This document shows positions 16,774-33,239 of a stretch of DNA of 64,000 bases, in pieces; the first letter of the stretch is position 1, and every line of letters starts with the position of its first letter. This stretch comes from Cedecea neteri NBRC 105707 = ATCC 33855 (GTDB taxonomy: Bacteria > Pseudomonadota > Gammaproteobacteria > Enterobacterales > Enterobacteriaceae), in NCBI RefSeq assembly GCF_001571265.1, contig NZ_BCTL01000042.1, forward strand, positions 1 through 64,000. The letters are read 5' to 3'. Position numbers and translations under genes: made by a program. Below the pieces are notes generated by a model, which was not told the origin of the DNA, made no database searches, and saw only the letters and a list, made by a program, of their open reading frames with translations.

Positions 16774-16803
16774 AAAGCGCCTTCTGATGAAGGCGCTTTT
16801 TTT
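16774..16803. terminator. Bidirectional terminator between fadL and the SPFH/P-type ATPase operon
   Basis: AAAGCGCCTT (16774-16783) and AAGGCGCTTT (16790-16799) form a perfect 10-bp stem with a CTGATG loop, followed by further T residues. The last gene of the opposing operon ends at 16802, so the hairpin serves both directions. Confidence 0.9.
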
Positions 16804-18703
16804 ATTCCTGCTCGCTCAGCTTCTCTTCAAACCGCAATAACCTTCCCGCATTGCCGAGCACCAGCAGCGTACTAAGGTTATGCAGCAGCGCGGCGATAAC
16901 TGCGCCAGAAGCGCCAAGCCAGCCAAAAGCCGCCATCGCGACAATCGCCAGCGTCCAGCCGAGCCCGATAAATACGTTGACCTGCAAAGTCCGGCGGCAG
17001 CGGCGGCTCAGGCGCACGCAGGTGCCAAGACGGCGAAGATCGCTGCCAATCAGCACAATATCCGCCGAGGACATCGCAATATCGGATCCACCGGCCCCCA
17101 TTGCCACACCCACCACCCCCGCCTTCAAAGCCAGTGAATCGTTGATGCCATCGCCGATAACCATAGGCCGGTAGCCGCTGTCGATTTGCCGCTTCACTTG
17201 CTCCAGCTTATCCGCCGGGAGCGCTCCGGCCACGACGTCGGTGATACCTACCTGGTGCGCAATCCGATCGGCAACCGACTGACGATCGCCGGTCAGTAAA
17301 AGCTGTCGGTTTAGCCCAAGCTCGCGCAGCTCGGCCATCGCCGTTGCCGCCTCACTTCGCAGACTGTCGGCCAGCAGCAGCCAGCCAAGAAAACGGCCAT
17401 CCAGCGCCAGGCCGACAATCGGGCCGTCATGCTCCGGGGCTTCAGGTAAGTCGGTCAATGTGGCAGCCAACAGCTCACGCCTGCCAAGCACCGCTTCTCC
17501 CTGTGGAGTAGAGGCAGAAACGCCTAATCCCTGATGCTCACGCACGTTGTCGAGGGGCAACCAGGCTTCCCGCGAAACGATCTCGCTCACCGCACGGCTG
17601 ACCGGGTGATTGCTGGTCGCACCCAGGCTCGCCGCCAGGGTTTGCAGCAAATCGGGAACGGTATCGCCATAAGGTGCCACGGACTGCAGGTGCAGCCTGC
17701 CGTGGGTCAGCGTGCCGGTCTTGTCGACCACCACGGCGTTGATCTCCGCCAGTTCCTCAAGAAACGCCGCGCCGCGAATTAAAATACCGTGGCGAGCGGC
17801 CACCGTCAGCCCGGCAATAGATGACGCGGGGGCGGAGAGCACCAGCGCACAGGGACAGGCCGCCACCAAAACGGCCAGCATCGCCTGGGCGTCCTGCGTC
17901 AGGAACCAGGTGCTGGCGGCAATCATCAATACCAGCAACAGATAGCGTGCCGCGTGGCGTTCGAGCAGGCGAGTGATCGGCGGGCTTGCCTGCTCCGCGC
18001 TTTGCATCAGGGCGATTACGCGTCCCAGCGTTGAGGTTTCGCCGGTACGCGTGACCCGGATGCGCAGCAGGCCATCAAGGTTTATCGCCCCACCAAAAAC
18101 TTCGGCACCGGGCTCAACTTCCTGCGGCACGGACTCCCCGGTAATGGGGGCCGTGTCCAGGCTGGCTTTGCCTTCCAGCACCAGGCCGTCGGCGGGAATA
18201 TGATCCCCGGCACGCACCTCAACCACATCGCCTGGCTCGAGGTCGTGGTTGTCGATATCCTGCAGCTCACCGTCCGTACCTAAGCGCCTCGCCCGGCTTC
18301 GCGTAAGCTTGCTTAGCGCTTCAATAGCTTCCTGTGAGCCAATCACGCTGCGCTCTTCAAGAATATGTCCGACAATCATGATCAGCGGTAGCAGCGCGGC
18401 GGTCAGAAGATCCCCCGTCGCCCAGGCACCCAGCAATGCCAGCGCAATAAGCTGGTCGGTTAATCCGTGCAGGCTGGGGTAGCGCAGGCTATGCAACGCA
18501 TGGCGAAGCACCGGGACAGCAACGACCACCGAGGCAGCGCCCAAAAGTAAATCGCCGACGGCAACCTGCTGAGGTGCCAGCCACCGCCAAAGCAGCCCCA
18601 GAATCAGCGCCCCGCTAGCCACCAGCGCCAGCATCAACTGGCGGGTGATATACCGCTGTTCCTGGCGAGTCAGCGCCCCACCGGCTTGTACTGAAGAAGT
18701 CAT
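16802..18703 (-). CDS. P1B-type heavy-metal ATPase in an SPFH operon
   Basis: A 633-residue inner-membrane pump. Motifs seen: TGES (188-191) of the actuator domain, CPC (283-285) in the metal-binding helix, DKTGTLTHG with the phosphorylated Asp327, the P1B-specific His-Pro pair at 366-367, and GDGIND (517-522). There is no N-terminal heavy-metal-associated domain. The C-terminal helices lack the lysine and aspartate of ZntA-type zinc pumps: the equivalent places read GLGW (Trp583) and LLHNLST (608-612), the latter recalling the HEGST motif of cobalt-type pumps. It overlaps the preceding SPFH gene by 4 bases and is the last gene of the operon. A Zur box upstream points to zinc; transport direction is unknown. 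Confidence 0.85.
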   Translation of the reverse strand: MTSSVQAGGALTRQEQRYITRQLMLALVASGALILGLLWRWLAPQQVAVGDLLLGAASVVVAVPVLRHALHSLRYPSLHGLTDQLIALALLGAWATGDLLTAALLPLIMIVGHILEERSVIGSQEAIEALSKLTRSRARRLGTDGELQDIDNHDLEPGDVVEVRAGDHIPADGLVLEGKASLDTAPITGESVPQEVEPGAEVFGGAINLDGLLRIRVTRTGETSTLGRVIALMQSAEQASPPITRLLERHAARYLLLVLMIAASTWFLTQDAQAMLAVLVAACPCALVLSAPASSIAGLTVAARHGILIRGAAFLEELAEINAVVVDKTGTLTHGRLHLQSVAPYGDTVPDLLQTLAASLGATSNHPVSRAVSEIVSREAWLPLDNVREHQGLGVSASTPQGEAVLGRRELLAATLTDLPEAPEHDGPIVGLALDGRFLGWLLLADSLRSEAATAMAELRELGLNRQLLLTGDRQSVADRIAHQVGITDVVAGALPADKLEQVKRQIDSGYRPMVIGDGINDSLALKAGVVGVAMGAGGSDIAMSSADIVLIGSDLRRLGTCVRLSRRCRRTLQVNVFIGLGWTLAIVAMAAFGWLGASGAVIAALLHNLSTLLVLGNAGRLLRFEEKLSEQE

Positions 18704-19752
18704 GGTTTCATCGCCTCTTTTTGCGCTACACCCTGCAGGATCAAATGGGCATCATCCTGCGGCGACACGGTAATCACCGATCCGGCCTGGGACAGGATCC
18801 CGGCTATTCGCTGGCGATAAATACGTCCCAGTAAATCGGGGTCGTCGTGGTTGCTGGCCAGACGGGCAATCGTCGCCGTGTCCGACTGCGCCTTAGCCAC
18901 GCTTTCCTGCGCTTTTGCCTGCGCGGTTTGCAGCATCTGATCGGCCTGTTGCACCGCTTTCTGCCGCGTCAATGAGGCATCGCTTTGCGCCGTCGCAATC
19001 GCTTTGGAAGCCTGCTGGCTGGCGGTTAAGACCGCGTTGAAAGCCGTCACTGTCGTCAAAGGTAAAGCCGACTGCACGGTCACCCGCTCAAGGGTGATAC
19101 CCGCGTCGCTCCCGGACTGCTGAAGCCGCAGCAAATTTTGTTCGATATTTCGCTGCACATCGCTCCGCAGCTGTTCACGCTGCTGAGCAACGTTCATATC
19201 GTTGCCGGGCATTTCGGGCCGGGCAACCAGAATGGTATCCAGATCGCGGGAAGCGCAAACTGCGACCGCCGCACGCTCCACCAACCGGTCCAGCAGCGGC
19301 AGGACATGCTTGCCCTGCAACACATAAGAGGTCGGCGTTCTGACCCGATAAAATACGCTAATATCCAGCTGCACAACGCCTGCGTCGCCGGTCAGCAGGA
19401 AACCCGAGCCCGAAATGGCATCATTGCCGGGGCCACCGTTGATATCCAGACTTTGCGCTTCGGACGAACGCAGCAGCGCGGTCACTCGATGTTCAATTAC
19501 GCGATCCGGCCCCGGTACCATCACCACTTCATTAACTGGTGCGGGCCAAGCAAGCAGCAAGCCCGGGTCGGCCACCCGTTGCTCCGCGCCGAAACGCAGC
19601 ACCACAGCCCTGCTGCCCGGCGGAATTTGCCGGACATTCGACAACAGCCACGCCCCGGCGGCAAACAGCGTCAGCACAAAGATCGCGATAAACGCCAGCC
19701 GAATCGACTGCGTCCACGGCCCGCCGGGCTCCAGTTTTTGCCGTTCGGTCAT
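18700..19752 (-). CDS. HflK/HflC-like SPFH protein (second of two short paralogues)
   Basis: A 350-residue protein with one N-terminal membrane helix (about 17-39, LAFIAIFVLTLFAAGAWLL). An SPFH/band-7 domain follows (about 42-235, starting QIPPGSRAVVLRFG), then an alanine- and glutamine-rich coiled coil (about 235-295) that contains KAVQQADQMLQTAQAKAQES. This is the layout of HflK/HflC, which sit in the inner membrane and surround the FtsH protease. It is not the housekeeping hflK or hflC: those lie next to hflX in enteric genomes, and this protein is only distantly similar. It overlaps both neighbours by 4 bases (ATGA), so it is translationally coupled to the His-rich SPFH gene and to the P-type ATPase. 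Confidence 0.8.
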   Translation of the reverse strand: MTERQKLEPGGPWTQSIRLAFIAIFVLTLFAAGAWLLSNVRQIPPGSRAVVLRFGAEQRVADPGLLLAWPAPVNEVVMVPGPDRVIEHRVTALLRSSEAQSLDINGGPGNDAISGSGFLLTGDAGVVQLDISVFYRVRTPTSYVLQGKHVLPLLDRLVERAAVAVCASRDLDTILVARPEMPGNDMNVAQQREQLRSDVQRNIEQNLLRLQQSGSDAGITLERVTVQSALPLTTVTAFNAVLTASQQASKAIATAQSDASLTRQKAVQQADQMLQTAQAKAQESVAKAQSDTATIARLASNHDDPDLLGRIYRQRIAGILSQAGSVITVSPQDDAHLILQGVAQKEAMKP

Positions 19753-20762
19753 GGTTTTTTATCCGCCGCGTTATCCATTTTCGGCCCGTCAACCAGCAGG
19801 CTGAACGGTTTTGCATCGGTACGCAGCACCAGCCGGGTTTGCGCATTGACCATGCCACTGAGGGCATCAATCTGGCGCAGCAGGCTATAAAGCTGTGGTG
19901 CGCTGGCATAGGCTTTGCCGTAAATCGACGCAGTTTGCACCTGCGCCTGGGCTTCAATATCTGCCGCTTTTACCGAGGCCTGAGCTTCGGTGATTCGGGC
20001 ATCGCGGTCAGCAGCCGAGCGAATTTCTGCCGCCGCGCGCTTGCCTTCCGCCGTACGCTCAATCGCAATGGTTTCACGCTCCGCTCGCATACGATCAACC
20101 GTGGCGTTGAGCGTCACGGCAGGCAGCGTCAGGCGTTCGGTACCCATCTGTACCAGCCTGATGCCGTAACTTTGCAACAGCGGCTGGCTGATTTGCTGCT
20201 GAAGATGGGACTCAAACTGTGCCAACTGAACCCGTTTGCCGTCGGTATTCACCAGTTGAGAAAGCGTGAAGCCGCTGGCGGTAGTTTCCAGCGCCGAACC
20301 TAAATAAGTACGAATCTGCCGGGCCGCTTCATCCGGCTGGTTTTGCACCGCCCGCATAAAACGCTGAACGTGTTCAGGCGTGCTGTCCACTTCCCACACC
20401 GCGTAGGACTGAACGATGATCCGCAGGCCATCGCGCGTGCCAACATCCTGCAGCCCGCTGGACGTCGTCCGCAGTCGCAGATCCACCACCGTCGCCGTCT
20501 CAAAAGGCGCGGGCAAGCGCCACGCCAGTCCCGGCTCCAGCAGCACCCGAACGGGTTTGCCGAAACGGGTGATCACCAACGATTCGCCGGATCTCACCTG
20601 CACCAGACTCGCAGCCGCAAGCAGAATAATGACCAGCCCAACGGCGGCGATAATACGCTTCCAGGCTCCTTTTTTACCGCCCTCCGGGGTGGAAGAGTGA
20701 CCATGGCTACAACCGTGGCCGTGGTGATGATCATGATGTCCATGAGAGTGCGAATGGCTCAC
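19749..20762 (-). CDS. HflC-like SPFH protein with a His-rich N-terminal tail
   Basis: A 337-residue SPFH protein. Residues 1-23 hold eleven histidines and one cysteine (SHSHSHGHHDHHHGHG then CSHGHS), a probable metal-binding tail on the cytoplasmic side. One membrane helix follows (about 35-56), then the band-7 domain beginning VRSGESLVITRFGKPVRVL, and a charged coiled coil (about 200-275: RMRAERETIAIERTAEGKRAAAEI). The RAERE...EGKRAAAEIR pattern is the hallmark of the HflC coiled coil. It overlaps both neighbours by 4 bases. The tail is not found in the E. coli HflC that I know, and together with the adjacent P-type ATPase and Zur box it suggests a zinc-linked role. Confidence 0.82.
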   Translation of the reverse strand: MSHSHSHGHHDHHHGHGCSHGHSSTPEGGKKGAWKRIIAAVGLVIILLAAASLVQVRSGESLVITRFGKPVRVLLEPGLAWRLPAPFETATVVDLRLRTTSSGLQDVGTRDGLRIIVQSYAVWEVDSTPEHVQRFMRAVQNQPDEAARQIRTYLGSALETTASGFTLSQLVNTDGKRVQLAQFESHLQQQISQPLLQSYGIRLVQMGTERLTLPAVTLNATVDRMRAERETIAIERTAEGKRAAAEIRSAADRDARITEAQASVKAADIEAQAQVQTASIYGKAYASAPQLYSLLRQIDALSGMVNAQTRLVLRTDAKPFSLLVDGPKMDNAADKKP

Positions 20763-22723
20763 CGGGAAAGCTCCTGTGCGGGTTTGGCGGGCGCGTCACG
20801 CCGCGCCGCATCGGTAGAAGTAGGGAAATCACGTAGATCGAGCGTCGGCGGCGAACCGGCGCCAATCCGCTGGTCAATGACCAGCAGAGGACGGCCGCTG
20901 AGTGCCTGTTGCAGCTGTTTAAACCAAAGCTCGTCGATAAAGACCTGCCCGGCCTGCTGGTACGCATTTTTCTGCGCGGCAAAGCGGGTCGCCGTAGCCT
21001 GAGCCTCGCTTAACGCTTCTGTGGCATTAATTTGCGCCGCGTTCTCGCGCACTGCGGCATTGGTCGCGGCAAGCGCGGCTTTTTCTGCCGCACTTCCCTG
21101 CTCCCGCAGGATTAGCGACTGGGCGGCAATCTGCGCGGCCTGCACGCCGTGAAACGCATCGGCTGCCCCGGCAGGAGGGTGAATCGCCTCCACGACGGTA
21201 GAAAGAATTTCCACACCGCTGTGCAGGCTATCCAGCTGCTGCTGCACGGCCTGGTTAATCTGCCCGGCCAGGTCGTCACGCCGCTCGCTCAGGACATCGT
21301 CCAGCGTTAAAGATGAGAACTGATGGACCAGCACCTGATTTGCGGTGCTGCGCACCAGCTCCGGCAGGTTCACTGCCCGGTAGGTCGCCGCCAGCGCGGC
21401 TTTATCACTCAGCCCGATACGCCACATAAAGCGCACGTCGCTGTTAACAATTTGCAGGCTTTGCTGATCCCCACTCTGGCTGGCGATGATTTGTGCTTTG
21501 TCGAAGTTGTGGGTGGCGTCCCACAGCCTGTCAGCGCTGGCGGGCGCGGGGCCTTCAGCGTTGACGCGTAGTACAGGCGGCTGATTAGCCGGATCTTCCC
21601 CGGCAGCCAGCTCATGCACCTGACCATTTTCGGTTAACTGTACCCGACCAAAGGGCCAGGGCAGTCCCAGGTGTAAGCCCGGCTCAAGCACCGCCACGGA
21701 GCGGCCAAAGCGCTCATACACCCCACGTTCAGTGGCGGAGATTTGCTGCAGCCCGGTCAGCAACCAGCCGCAGATCAGCATCAGGGTCACCATTGGGATA
21801 AACGCGCGCTTCAGGACGGTGAAAGCCCAGACCTGGCGAAGATCGATGCCAAAGCGCTGGTGCAGCTCCTGCTGTAAAAAACCGAGCGGGCGCGGCGGCC
21901 AGGTTAGCTGAGCGGCCAGCTGGCTTTTGGGAATCAGGCCGGGTTCTGTCGTGCCGTCTCCGGGTGGCGCGAACAGAGAAAACAGCCCGCGCAGCATAAA
22001 CTCTGCGGCAACCAACAGTACCAGCACAGCGGGTAAGTTTATCGCCAGTGAACTGTTAAGCTGCGGCCAGACAAGCCCCGGTAAGCTCAGCAACTGTACC
22101 GCCATCACCAGACGAAGCAGTGGCGCTATCGACCCGGCTTCCGGTGAGGCTTCTTTCGACACCGCGCTGAGATGCCGTTCGGCCACCAGCAGAACAAAGA
22201 CGGCCCCCGCCAGGCAGGCCACGGCAATCCAGCGGTTATTATTGTCCAGAAGCGGGACGTAGCTGCTATTCCAGCCAGAAAGCGCAATATAGAACGCCAG
22301 CGCGGCAAGCGCCCCGGACCAGATGCCGTCCGCCTTAAACAAAGCTTCAGCCCGGGTAAAATTTAACGGCACCAGGCCCGTAAGCCAGCTTAAAAGAGGG
22401 TTCTTTGGCGCTTCTTCATGCTGAGCCGAAGGCTCAACCGGTGGGGAGAATTTAAGGCTTCGCCACAGGCAAATACGCTGCGTCGCGTGCAGCGAAACAA
22501 CCAATAACAACAGCGCTGCGGCATTGCTGCATAACAAAGCGACCCAGCGTGAAGTCGGCTCCAGAATACTGACCGTCAGCGCCAGAAGGAGCATCATAAA
22601 CAGCAAGAAGGTTAAGGCAAACACCGCTCGAGCGGCGAGTCGGGCCTGCACGGCGGCCAGCGAATAGCGAGCGGGCAGCGCCTGAGGCAGCAGTTCAGCT
22701 TCGGGTAACCGGGTAGGTGGCAT
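20759..22723 (-). CDS. Polytopic membrane protein fused to an SPFH (HflK-like) domain
   Basis: A 654-residue protein, first gene of the operon. The N-terminal half (about 30-330) has some seven hydrophobic segments, for example ALTFLLFMMLLLALTVSIL and NLPAVLVLLVAAEFML, and is not present in ordinary HflK. The C-terminal part (about 333-600) is a band-7 domain that opens QQISATERGVYERFGRSVAVL and contains WPFGRVQLTENGQVHEL, like HflK. It ends with an alanine-rich coiled coil (AAEKAALAATNAAVRENAA). The last 40 residues are charged. It overlaps the His-tailed SPFH gene by 4 bases. I do not know a named homologue; the function is inferred only from the SPFH domain and context. Confidence 0.75.
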   Translation of the reverse strand: MPPTRLPEAELLPQALPARYSLAAVQARLAARAVFALTFLLFMMLLLALTVSILEPTSRWVALLCSNAAALLLLVVSLHATQRICLWRSLKFSPPVEPSAQHEEAPKNPLLSWLTGLVPLNFTRAEALFKADGIWSGALAALAFYIALSGWNSSYVPLLDNNNRWIAVACLAGAVFVLLVAERHLSAVSKEASPEAGSIAPLLRLVMAVQLLSLPGLVWPQLNSSLAINLPAVLVLLVAAEFMLRGLFSLFAPPGDGTTEPGLIPKSQLAAQLTWPPRPLGFLQQELHQRFGIDLRQVWAFTVLKRAFIPMVTLMLICGWLLTGLQQISATERGVYERFGRSVAVLEPGLHLGLPWPFGRVQLTENGQVHELAAGEDPANQPPVLRVNAEGPAPASADRLWDATHNFDKAQIIASQSGDQQSLQIVNSDVRFMWRIGLSDKAALAATYRAVNLPELVRSTANQVLVHQFSSLTLDDVLSERRDDLAGQINQAVQQQLDSLHSGVEILSTVVEAIHPPAGAADAFHGVQAAQIAAQSLILREQGSAAEKAALAATNAAVRENAAQINATEALSEAQATATRFAAQKNAYQQAGQVFIDELWFKQLQQALSGRPLLVIDQRIGAGSPPTLDLRDFPTSTDAARRDAPAKPAQELSR

Positions 22724-22770: not shown

Positions 22771-22785
22771 TGTTATTTTATAACA
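22771..22785 (-). promoter_or_regulatory. Zur box of the SPFH/P-type ATPase operon
   Basis: TGTTATTTTATAACA is a perfect palindrome (6-bp arms, 3-bp centre) that matches the core of the gammaproteobacterial Zur operator TGTTATANTATAACA at 13 of 14 specified positions. It lies 48-62 bases before the first start codon of the operon. It falls between a possible -35 (TTGGTA) and a possible -10 (TAAAAA), the usual place for a repressor. A direct repeat of ATGCGCAG (22741-22748 and 22752-22759) lies between it and the gene. Zur would release the operon in zinc starvation. Confidence 0.7.
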
Positions 22786-31656: not shown

Positions 31657-32610
31657 TTATAATAATTTTCTTTCAATGGTTTTTGAAATTGTCAAAATAT
31701 CATCAGGGATATTTCTTTTCCCCTCGATACGTACTGTGAACATAAAAAGAATAATAGCTGACTTCACAATTTTCATGAACTGCAGCAGATGTTGCTCAAA
31801 CTCTTCTTTTTCAACGAATTTTACGTCATCAAAGAAATCATAGGAATTATATAAATCCACAAGCATTCCTTTTTCATGAATTACTAATAACTTATGTTCT
31901 AAATCATTCCTCCACTCTCTAAAAAAAGCAAGTTCACCATTATTATCATTCAAATCCATTGCAATACTAAACAAACCGAACAATCCTTTATTATTTATTT
32001 TGTTTATTTTATTCTTTCTTTTTTCATCACGAACCTGCCAGAAGTTATGAAAATAGATATGACCTCTATCTGGTTTTAAGTCAAACAGTTTACATAGTGC
32101 AACTGCTATTTTATCCAAAACACCAAAGCACGCTCTAAATGAAATTCTTAATTTCTCAACATTTTCATATAAAATCTCACCATTATACAATTCAGAATAA
32201 CAAACCTCGGAATCATCGTCAAAAAACTCACCATCAATTTTATATTCAAAAAACATCTTTCTCGCAAGCGAGTACTCTGCTTTGAGTCTATTCAACACCA
32301 TTTCCATTGGTACAATAAAGTCCCCATAAACTCCCTTCTCGGTAGTTGCAATAACTATATTATCTTTAGATGACGCGTAGCAATTGCAATATAGAGAATG
32401 ATCAGACAGCATTAGATTATTATCTATGCAAAATTTCTGATAGTGTGATAACGATTCATACTCCTCAAGTGTGAGCCGTTCATCTGTACCAACATCATCA
32501 ATATTGTCTATACATGACTCTGCCAATAGCTCTTCGTTGTATTTTATTTTGCTTTGCTTTGATAAGTTGTAATCCATGAAGGGATACATTTTCCTGTATT
32601 TATTGCACAT
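31657..32610 (-). CDS. HEPN-domain protein, LA2681-like (probable RNase)
   Basis: A 317-residue protein. The key feature is REWRNDLEHK near residues 231-240, a textbook HEPN Rx4H motif (Arg234, His239) as in many toxin and defence RNases. The overall sequence resembles what I recall of the LA2681-like HEPN family, in which TPR repeats and the HEPN domain are normally in one protein. Here the TPR part is a separate frame that overlaps this one by 67 bases at -1 relative to it, across the A-rich sequence near 32544-32565. So this may be a two-gene system or one frameshifted gene. Codon use and composition are far more AT-rich than in the flanking core genes, a sign of transfer. No signal peptide. 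Confidence 0.7.
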   Translation of the reverse strand: MCNKYRKMYPFMDYNLSKQSKIKYNEELLAESCIDNIDDVGTDERLTLEEYESLSHYQKFCIDNNLMLSDHSLYCNCYASSKDNIVIATTEKGVYGDFIVPMEMVLNRLKAEYSLARKMFFEYKIDGEFFDDDSEVCYSELYNGEILYENVEKLRISFRACFGVLDKIAVALCKLFDLKPDRGHIYFHNFWQVRDEKRKNKINKINNKGLFGLFSIAMDLNDNNGELAFFREWRNDLEHKLLVIHEKGMLVDLYNSYDFFDDVKFVEKEEFEQHLLQFMKIVKSAIILFMFTVRIEGKRNIPDDILTISKTIERKLL

Positions 32611-33239
32611 TCATAACCCCGAATAACTTCTCTCACCATTTTAAATGTATATGTGGTAGATAAGTCATTAAGCAGCTCCAAAGCTTCAGACCGGTTGACC
32701 CACGCCTGTGGAATTGAACCATCAATAGCTATGGCTTGATCATAATAATCCATTGATTCAGATATACGATACTGTCTTTTTAATACATTACCTAAGTTAA
32801 TCATTAACTGAGGTTGAACATCACCTTCTTCTCTTGAGAACTTATATGATTTCCAGTAATTATTTTTAACCTCATTCAGCTTAATGAAAGTGTCAATATT
32901 TGCATCATCACAAGGGTTAAAATCAAGAACTGCACTCATACCATTTGCCAAGTTATAATAGTATGAAGAACCTGTTGTTATAGTTAAAATATCCTTCCTG
33001 TTATTTATAAATATTCTCAACCCTTCTTCTGCTATACTTTTTTTATTACTAAAGCTTCCAATATCAATAAGATTACCAGCTAGGTTAGATAATATTATTA
33101 TTTTATTTGAACTGATAGCATTTAAATAATCTAAAGCTTTCAATATTTTTTTCACATTTTTATAAGCAGAATCAAATGCCCCTGCGTTTATAAGATCATT
33201 AATATCTTTCATTTTAGAAACTACATAATTGATATCCAT
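32544..33239 (-). CDS. TPR-like protein upstream of the HEPN gene
   Basis: A 231-residue helical protein. The repeat QPQLMINLGNVLKRQYRISESMDYYDQAIAIDG then SIPQAWVNRSEAL fits tetratricopeptide repeats (about 145-195), and the N-terminal third looks like further helical hairpins. It starts at an ATG at 33239 with GAGGG just upstream. A -10-like TATAAT is at 33276-33281. It ends inside the next gene. Likely role, by family: sensor or scaffold half of an LA2681-type TPR-HEPN module. AT-rich like its partner. It could be the 5' part of a frameshifted single gene of about 520 codons. Confidence 0.65.
   Translation of the reverse strand: MDINYVVSKMKDINDLINAGAFDSAYKNVKKILKALDYLNAISSNKIIILSNLAGNLIDIGSFSNKKSIAEEGLRIFINNRKDILTITTGSSYYYNLANGMSAVLDFNPCDDANIDTFIKLNEVKNNYWKSYKFSREEGDVQPQLMINLGNVLKRQYRISESMDYYDQAIAIDGSIPQAWVNRSEALELLNDLSTTYTFKMVREVIRGYECAINTGKCIPSWITTYQSKAK

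Follow-up and report, generated by a model that had tools for sequence, protein, structure and literature searches.

The 64,000-nt window that we analysed (positions 1 to 64,000 of contig NZ_BCTL01000042.1 from Cedecea neteri NBRC 105707 = ATCC 33855) contains four minus-strand genes with overlapping ends, coding for an HflK-like protein (SPFH654), an HflC-like protein, a second HflK/C-like protein (SPFH350) and a P1B-type metal ATPase (Table 1). The operon is situated between mlaA, upstream (Pfam), and a fadL-type gene, downstream, and includes no FtsH-like gene. SPFH654 shows several hydrophobic segments and a C-terminal SPFH domain in hydropathy and Pfam analyses. The nearest relatives are from Enterobacter sp. 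Ag1, Enterobacter sp. Cy-643, Enterobacteriaceae bacterium RIT693 and Cedecea davisae.

Table 1. Features of the SPFH-ATPase operon and its upstream region (coordinates refer to the window).
Feature	Coordinates	Strand	Evidence and remarks
Zur-box-like palindrome TGTTATAAAATAACA (putative)	22771..22785	minus	48-62 bp ahead of the SPFH654 start codon
SPFH654 (HflK-like), first operon gene	20759..22723	minus	Band_7 6e-23, residues 327-543; hydropathy
HflC-like SPFH protein, 337 aa	19749..20762	minus	Pfam Band_7 1e-29; hydropathy; low-confidence model
His-rich tail MSHSHSHGHHDHHHGHGCSHGHS	20694..20762	minus	First 23 residues of the HflC-like protein, with 11 His and 1 Cys
SPFH350, second HflK/C-like SPFH protein	18700..19752	minus	Band_7 2e-20
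P1B-type metal ATPase	16802..18703	minus	TIGR01525, 528.6 bits (cut-off 346.25); Pfam; CPC and HN motifs

The most conspicuous feature of the operon is the N-terminal end of the HflC-like protein, where the translated ORF, its start and its hydropathy profile bear out the eleven histidines and single cysteine that the initial annotation had placed ahead of the membrane helix. The gene starts with GTG, and this start is well supported because the upstream gene ends in a TGA that overlaps its GTGA, it is directly preceded by AGGAG, and three near relatives (L037-L039) have almost the same N-terminal stretch, with 10-11 His. A 19-residue hydrophobic window opens at residue 31, so that the tail lies ahead of the membrane helix, and the protein is therefore laid out as the tail, a single membrane helix (about residues 31-51) and the SPFH domain. 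The sequence KKGAWKR borders the hydrophobic segment on its N-terminal side; the positive-inside rule, together with the topology of HflC as an analogy, would make the tail cytosolic. A comparison of the 427 open stretches in the window that span 60 codons or more shows the tail to be the His-richest 23-residue segment, with 11 His against 7 for the runner-up; with an assumed His background of 2-3%, the binomial probability of finding at least 11 His in 23 residues is 2e-13 to 2e-11. The His codons are mixed (6 CAT and 5 CAC), as they are in all 101 tails with at least six His from other operons, which indicates that the tail is not one recent DNA repeat. On the basis of the binomial probability, the mixed codons and the comparison with the other open stretches, we reject the reading of the tail as a chance or repeat artefact.

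The HflC-like protein clearly belongs to the SPFH/Band 7 superfamily (104.2 bits, for a gathering score of 23.6), Band_7 being its only Pfam domain at E ≤ 0.001, and matches E. coli HflC in a phmmer search (1.3e-17). It shares with E. coli HflK and HflC (PDB 7vhp, 7wi3) both the family and one N-terminal membrane helix. Nevertheless, it is not the HflC of the cell: its scores stay below the NCBIfam cut-offs for HflC (91.0 vs 134.4 for TIGR01932, and 84.3 vs 427 for NF008259) and, whereas three of the six Band_7 matches in the genome fall within the operon, two others are on contig 11, in an HflK/HflC-type pair that we take as the ordinary HflK/HflC. HflK/C, prohibitin and stomatin are the PDB entries that best match the AlphaFold model of the protein, in agreement with the sequence search, but were given no weight because the model is poor (mean pLDDT of 51). 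Canonical HflK and HflC also differ in being encoded in another operon, in having FtsH and not a metal ATPase as their partner, and in lacking a His tail in the N-termini read. The annotation had been correct on this last point: no His was found in the first 45 residues of any of the nine canonical proteins that were readable among 20 loci tried, four of the HflK type (L003, L020, L021, L023) and five of the HflC type (L027, L028, L030, L033, L036); the remaining loci comprised a repeat of L003 and ten with a different or an incomplete ORF.

The last gene codes for a P1B heavy-metal ATPase, with a TIGR01525 score above the cut-off, a CPC motif at residues 283-285 and DKTGT from residue 327. 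Its sequence is related to that of ZntA (PDB 4umv; phmmer 6e-76), with which it shares the CPC motif, but several differences argue against an ordinary ZntA exporter: its score with the ZntA model (297.7) is far from the cut-off of 1240, no HMA domain was found by Pfam, in contrast to ZntA, and T and H, the latter followed by N, occupy the places of the ZntA residues that we take to be K693 and D714. The CPC motif, the T and the HN pair were each present in all 92 readable rows of an orthologue alignment, another 19 rows being unreadable. The combination of CPC with HN in a late membrane helix corresponds to the P1B6-like type as defined in the available portion of PMC9374683, and occurs in 92/92 readable rows. 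From the gene order in Pseudomonas loci, we infer that the ATPase is of the HmtA type.

Homologs of the HflC-like protein, counted at strong similarity, are scattered. They occur in 13 of 294 genomes from the family of the window, its own included; in 28 of 198 genomes from the family of a hand-picked Pseudomonas genome, this centre genome included; in 11 of 398 genomes of a phylum sample; and in one of the 369 genomes of a class sample, which is that of the window itself. Additionally, they were found in 10 of 72,556 plasmid records (seven from Rhizobium and one each from Klebsiella, Paraburkholderia and Burkholderia), and a search with the ATPase matched exactly these 10 plasmids. A genome search in E. 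coli with the tail-less relative gave no match. This patchy spread suggests horizontal transfer, as has likewise been proposed for the P. aeruginosa operon in the part of PMC13086221 that was available.

The His tail is largely maintained across these samples. It contains at least 10 His, within the 38 residues ahead of the membrane helix, in all 28 Pseudomonadaceae loci and in all eight new loci of the phylum sample, although seven of the latter repeat places of the Pseudomonadaceae set; the eighth (L132) has 10 His and resembles the Rhizobium plasmid copies. The tail is also kept in eight of the nine distinct plasmid loci, while the 12 usable loci from the family of the window comprise eight with at least six His, one with four and three with none. 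A larger set of 120 distinct loci, in which identical HflC cores were merged, includes loci from a contig search that were selected in part with a His-rich peptide pattern; in this biased set, 112 of 119 usable loci have at least six His in a fixed stretch of 45 residues, which may extend before the true start, L041 being left out because its frame is split by a stop. Our frequencies thus rest on the family, Pseudomonas-family, phylum and plasmid samples and not on the pattern-selected set. The composition of the tail is kept, whereas its sequence and length drift, with motifs such as HDHDHD, HHHHHH and HGCSSGCHH.

The ATPase of the window has no His tail, but those of its relatives often bear one at their N-terminus. 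Using thresholds of six His for the HflC-like protein and three for the ATPase, which were chosen after the data were seen, 76 of 108 operons have only the HflC tail, 26 have both, six have only the ATPase tail and none lacks both; the lowest sum of His in the two tails is four (L161). The remaining 12 of the 120 loci were L041, L163 (with a tail-less HflC-like protein on a contig ending ahead of its ATPase gene), L211 (broken frame) and nine with an unplaced ATPase start; five of these nine (L133, L136, L137, L139 and L142) coincide with L169 and L171-L174, in which the ATPase has 7-11 His in its most His-rich stretch of 30 residues. On a tree of 67 of the 108 rows, thinned only for the Pseudomonas loci from the contig search, the state of the HflC tail switches twice, and the six tail-less operons form two enterobacterial lineages. 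In one of them (L117, L161 and L162), the ATPase carries MSHQCSHGHIHP and similar sequences, a short segment with 3-5 His and 1-2 Cys; in the other (L165, L212 and L213), the ATPase segment contains 10-21 His by the counting rule that we applied, the ATPase start of L212 being unplaced. Conversely, the ATPase segment holds 0-1 His, as in the window, in the 15 other enterobacterial rows with an HflC tail, with the exception of the broken-frame locus L211, which has five His despite its HflC tail. The expectation of the initial annotation that the tail would be kept in orthologues from the same operon is consequently borne out in most of them and fails in 6/108, in two lineages whose ATPase carries the histidines. 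A tree-based pair test is unable to reach significance with two losses, and so the exchange is suggestive of, though not significant evidence for, two interchangeable zinc-binding elements that might belong to one complex. The N-terminus of P1B ATPases is cytosolic and, because of this, the exchange suits a cytosolic location of the HflC tail.

A Zur-box-like palindrome precedes the first gene of the operon. The pattern TGTTATNNNATAAC matches the genome 73 times on both strands with up to one mismatch, versus 45 times for a backward control, and is therefore weak when taken alone. Without mismatches, it occurs at seven places in the genome, the operon site among them. We examined the neighbours of nine Zur-like loci, two of which (L190 and L206) had one mismatch and were picked by eye: six genes at five of these sites were named by NCBIfam above the cut-off (ZnuA, ZnuC, ZinT, ZigA, FolE2 and the type-B L31 protein, rpmE2), two further sites adjoin genes for a TonB receptor and a metal-ABC-type ATPase, neither of which reaches a cut-off, one adjoins cysS, and the ninth is that of the window. 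Among 105 loci scanned ahead of the operon, amounting to 104 distinct upstream stretches, mostly from Pseudomonas, a fixed consensus beat shuffled sequences at the 0.05 level in 57, and a palindrome, whose definition was set after the fixed-consensus scan of these same loci, was present in 93. Equal stretches within the first gene gave 0/105, which is a soft control because it consists of coding DNA, and simulated sequences with like dinucleotides gave a mean of 0.18 and a maximum of 2 out of 105 in 50 rounds. The palindrome, as defined, was absent from 12 loci, including those from Rhizobium and Burkholderiaceae. These results suggest that the operon looks Zur-controlled, through a putative site recognised by sequence.

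The same gene order (HflK-like, HflC-like, HflC/K-like and P1B ATPase) is found in the hmtA cluster of P. aeruginosa (PA2439-PA2434), for which Zur control and a response to zinc starvation are described, in parallel with the Zur-box-like site of Cedecea. According to the portions available of the papers cited, a znuA mutant shows a 5.6-14.4 fold increase of the listed PA2434-PA2439 genes, whose Zur site is weak (PMC4542158), and Zur shifts the PA2439 promoter in the presence of zinc, while hmtA mRNA is low and unchanged (PMC8531726); a review excepts hmtA from Zur binding (PMC10393844, in part). At the protein level, zinc depletion increases PA2435, PA2438 and PA2439, though not significantly in every case, and PA2437 does not change significantly (PMC11761036, excerpt). 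HmtA, the counterpart of the ATPase, is described as an importer in the sections available of PMC10393844 and PMC8456098, and the former reports, from second-hand transport data, that its overexpression raises cell zinc and copper. The three SPFH proteins PA2437, PA2438 and PA2439 correspond to PA14_33110, PA14_33080 and PA14_33070 (PMC9431628), the locus tags carried by PaFlo5-7 in PMC13086221, where, in the part available, deletion of the P. aeruginosa SPFH genes gave slight phenotypes at most. The window contains no equivalent of PA2436. Four Pseudomonadaceae loci (L169, L171, L172 and L174) differ in having His tails on both proteins and an extra small ORF ahead of the ATPase; this ORF, between the SPFH350 and ATPase genes and thus at the place of PA2436, codes for a small protein whose N-terminus is signal-like and which contains a motif resembling LPSGMLVGVVDSASFPVITLKRPKPNLLKQ.

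Functionally, the mycobacterial pair PacL1-CtpC comes closest to an SPFH protein that bears a His/Asp tail. As described in the accessible part of PMC9374683, CtpC is a zinc exporter with CPC and HN, named P1B6-like; ATPases of this kind are encoded with DUF1490- or DUF6110-type membrane proteins, and PacL1, clustered with CtpC, carries a DLHDHDH motif. Common to both systems are thus a membrane partner, a flexible cytosolic His/Asp motif and the association with a CPC + HN ATPase. They differ, from the same source, in that PacL is a DUF1490 and not an SPFH protein, in that CtpC confers resistance to excess zinc, and in the C-terminal position of the motif; no DUF1490 domain was found by Pfam in the HflC-like protein.

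Taken together, we favour, with a probability of around 60%, that the tail is a disordered cytosolic segment that binds Zn(II) and buffers it, lies at the mouth of a scaffold of SPFH proteins with an HmtA-type ATPase at its centre, and probably receives imported zinc; here we infer zinc binding, the cytosolic side, the complex and the direction of transport. The three HflK/C-type proteins would form an inner-membrane scaffold holding the ATPase, itself devoid of an HMA domain. When zinc is scarce, Zur would release the operon, which would then be expressed; zinc moved by the ATPase could be caught and buffered by the His tails at the cytosolic face, and the zinc held there might be passed on or feed back on the pump. 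Some lineages carry histidines on the N-terminus of the ATPase, additionally or instead. Points against this reading are the two losses on which the tail exchange rests, with a short ATPase segment in one of these lineages, the slight phenotypes of the SPFH deletions, the review that excepts hmtA from Zur binding, and the 12 loci devoid of the palindrome. The zinc link of the tail is supported by regulation and context: the initial proposal of a link with zinc and with the neighbouring ATPase gains from the Zur-box-like site, the co-occurrence on 10 plasmids and the His swap. The idea that the tail hands metal to the ATPase fares worse, since the pump is not clearly an exporter, and an operon that looks Zur-controlled and whose P. 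aeruginosa counterpart reportedly imports metal fits better with a tail that receives or buffers imported zinc. More tentatively, and with considerable doubt on our part, the SPFH proteins may build an HflK/C-like cage enclosing the zinc ATPase, with a cytosolic rim in which many tails would bring together some hundred His and that would serve as a membrane-bound zinc sponge and gate; such a rim would act by local concentration, and therefore histidines borne by the cage or by the pump would be nearly equivalent and the tail could move.

Other explanations share part of this evidence. The HflC-like ring could work with FtsH as a zinc-sensing proteolysis switch, in which the loaded tail would let FtsH degrade the ATPase or uptake proteins. 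Membership in the SPFH family and the modulation of FtsH by HflK/C (PMC13086221 and PMC12048511, in the portions available) are in keeping with it, and an excerpt of PMC9431628 reads PA2437-PA2439 as FtsH modulators. The lack of an FtsH-like gene in the operon and the ATPase being the partner kept with these genes make this switch unlikely, however, and it would have no need for the histidines that two lineages carry on the ATPase instead. Somewhat harder to sustain is a tail that loads metal onto the ATPase for efflux, as proposed for PacL1 and CtpC, a reading that resembles the initial proposal. Most P1B ATPases export (PMC10393844, in part), and the CPC + HN exporter CtpC has a membrane partner with a DLHDHDH motif; but the Zur-box-like site and the induction by zinc starvation fit uptake, and so does the rise in cell zinc and copper upon overexpression of HmtA.

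We consider it very improbable that the tail is a functionless, drifting low-complexity sequence kept by repeat slippage and weak selection. Its sequence and length do vary widely, L211 contains a His-Asp repeat, and some lineages have lost it, as would be expected under drift. On the contrary, tails rich in His recur from Enterobacteriaceae to Rhizobium and Burkholderiaceae, 101/101 tails use a mixture of the two His codons, and not one of 108 operons is devoid of both tails.

The operon is already known, whereas descriptions of the tail, of how it is distributed and of its exchange with the ATPase appear to be lacking in the literature that we searched, where no mention of the tail was found; subscription papers, the original HmtA paper among them, were outside its scope. 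In PMC13086221, the terms "hmta" and "P-type ATPase" appear 0 times, and the two hits to "histidine" are kinase titles in the references. HmtA is unusual among P1B ATPases in that import is ascribed to it, and the literature searched offers no explanation for the role of its three SPFH neighbours. If the preferred reading of a zinc-buffering tail on an SPFH scaffold is true, dedicated transporter housings would join protease modulators and raft markers among the bacterial SPFH scaffolds.

Several loci showed additional features. The tail-less form of the operon in L117 is on a Klebsiella aerogenes plasmid, pYD-K10_1, typed as conjugative, and a Tn3-family transposase gene starts about 2.4 kb past its ATPase gene. 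In L041 (Buttiauxella agrestis) and L010, a stop interrupts the HflC-like frame, while long open frames are retained in the matches to the rest of the operon. Elsewhere in the window, the minus strand at 31657-33239 codes for an LA2681-like HEPN protein (Pfam 1.5e-37) plus an overlapping ORF of 231 residues; this stretch has 33-40% GC, versus 50-64% over the preceding 17 kb, and is possibly a foreign, perhaps defence-type, insert.
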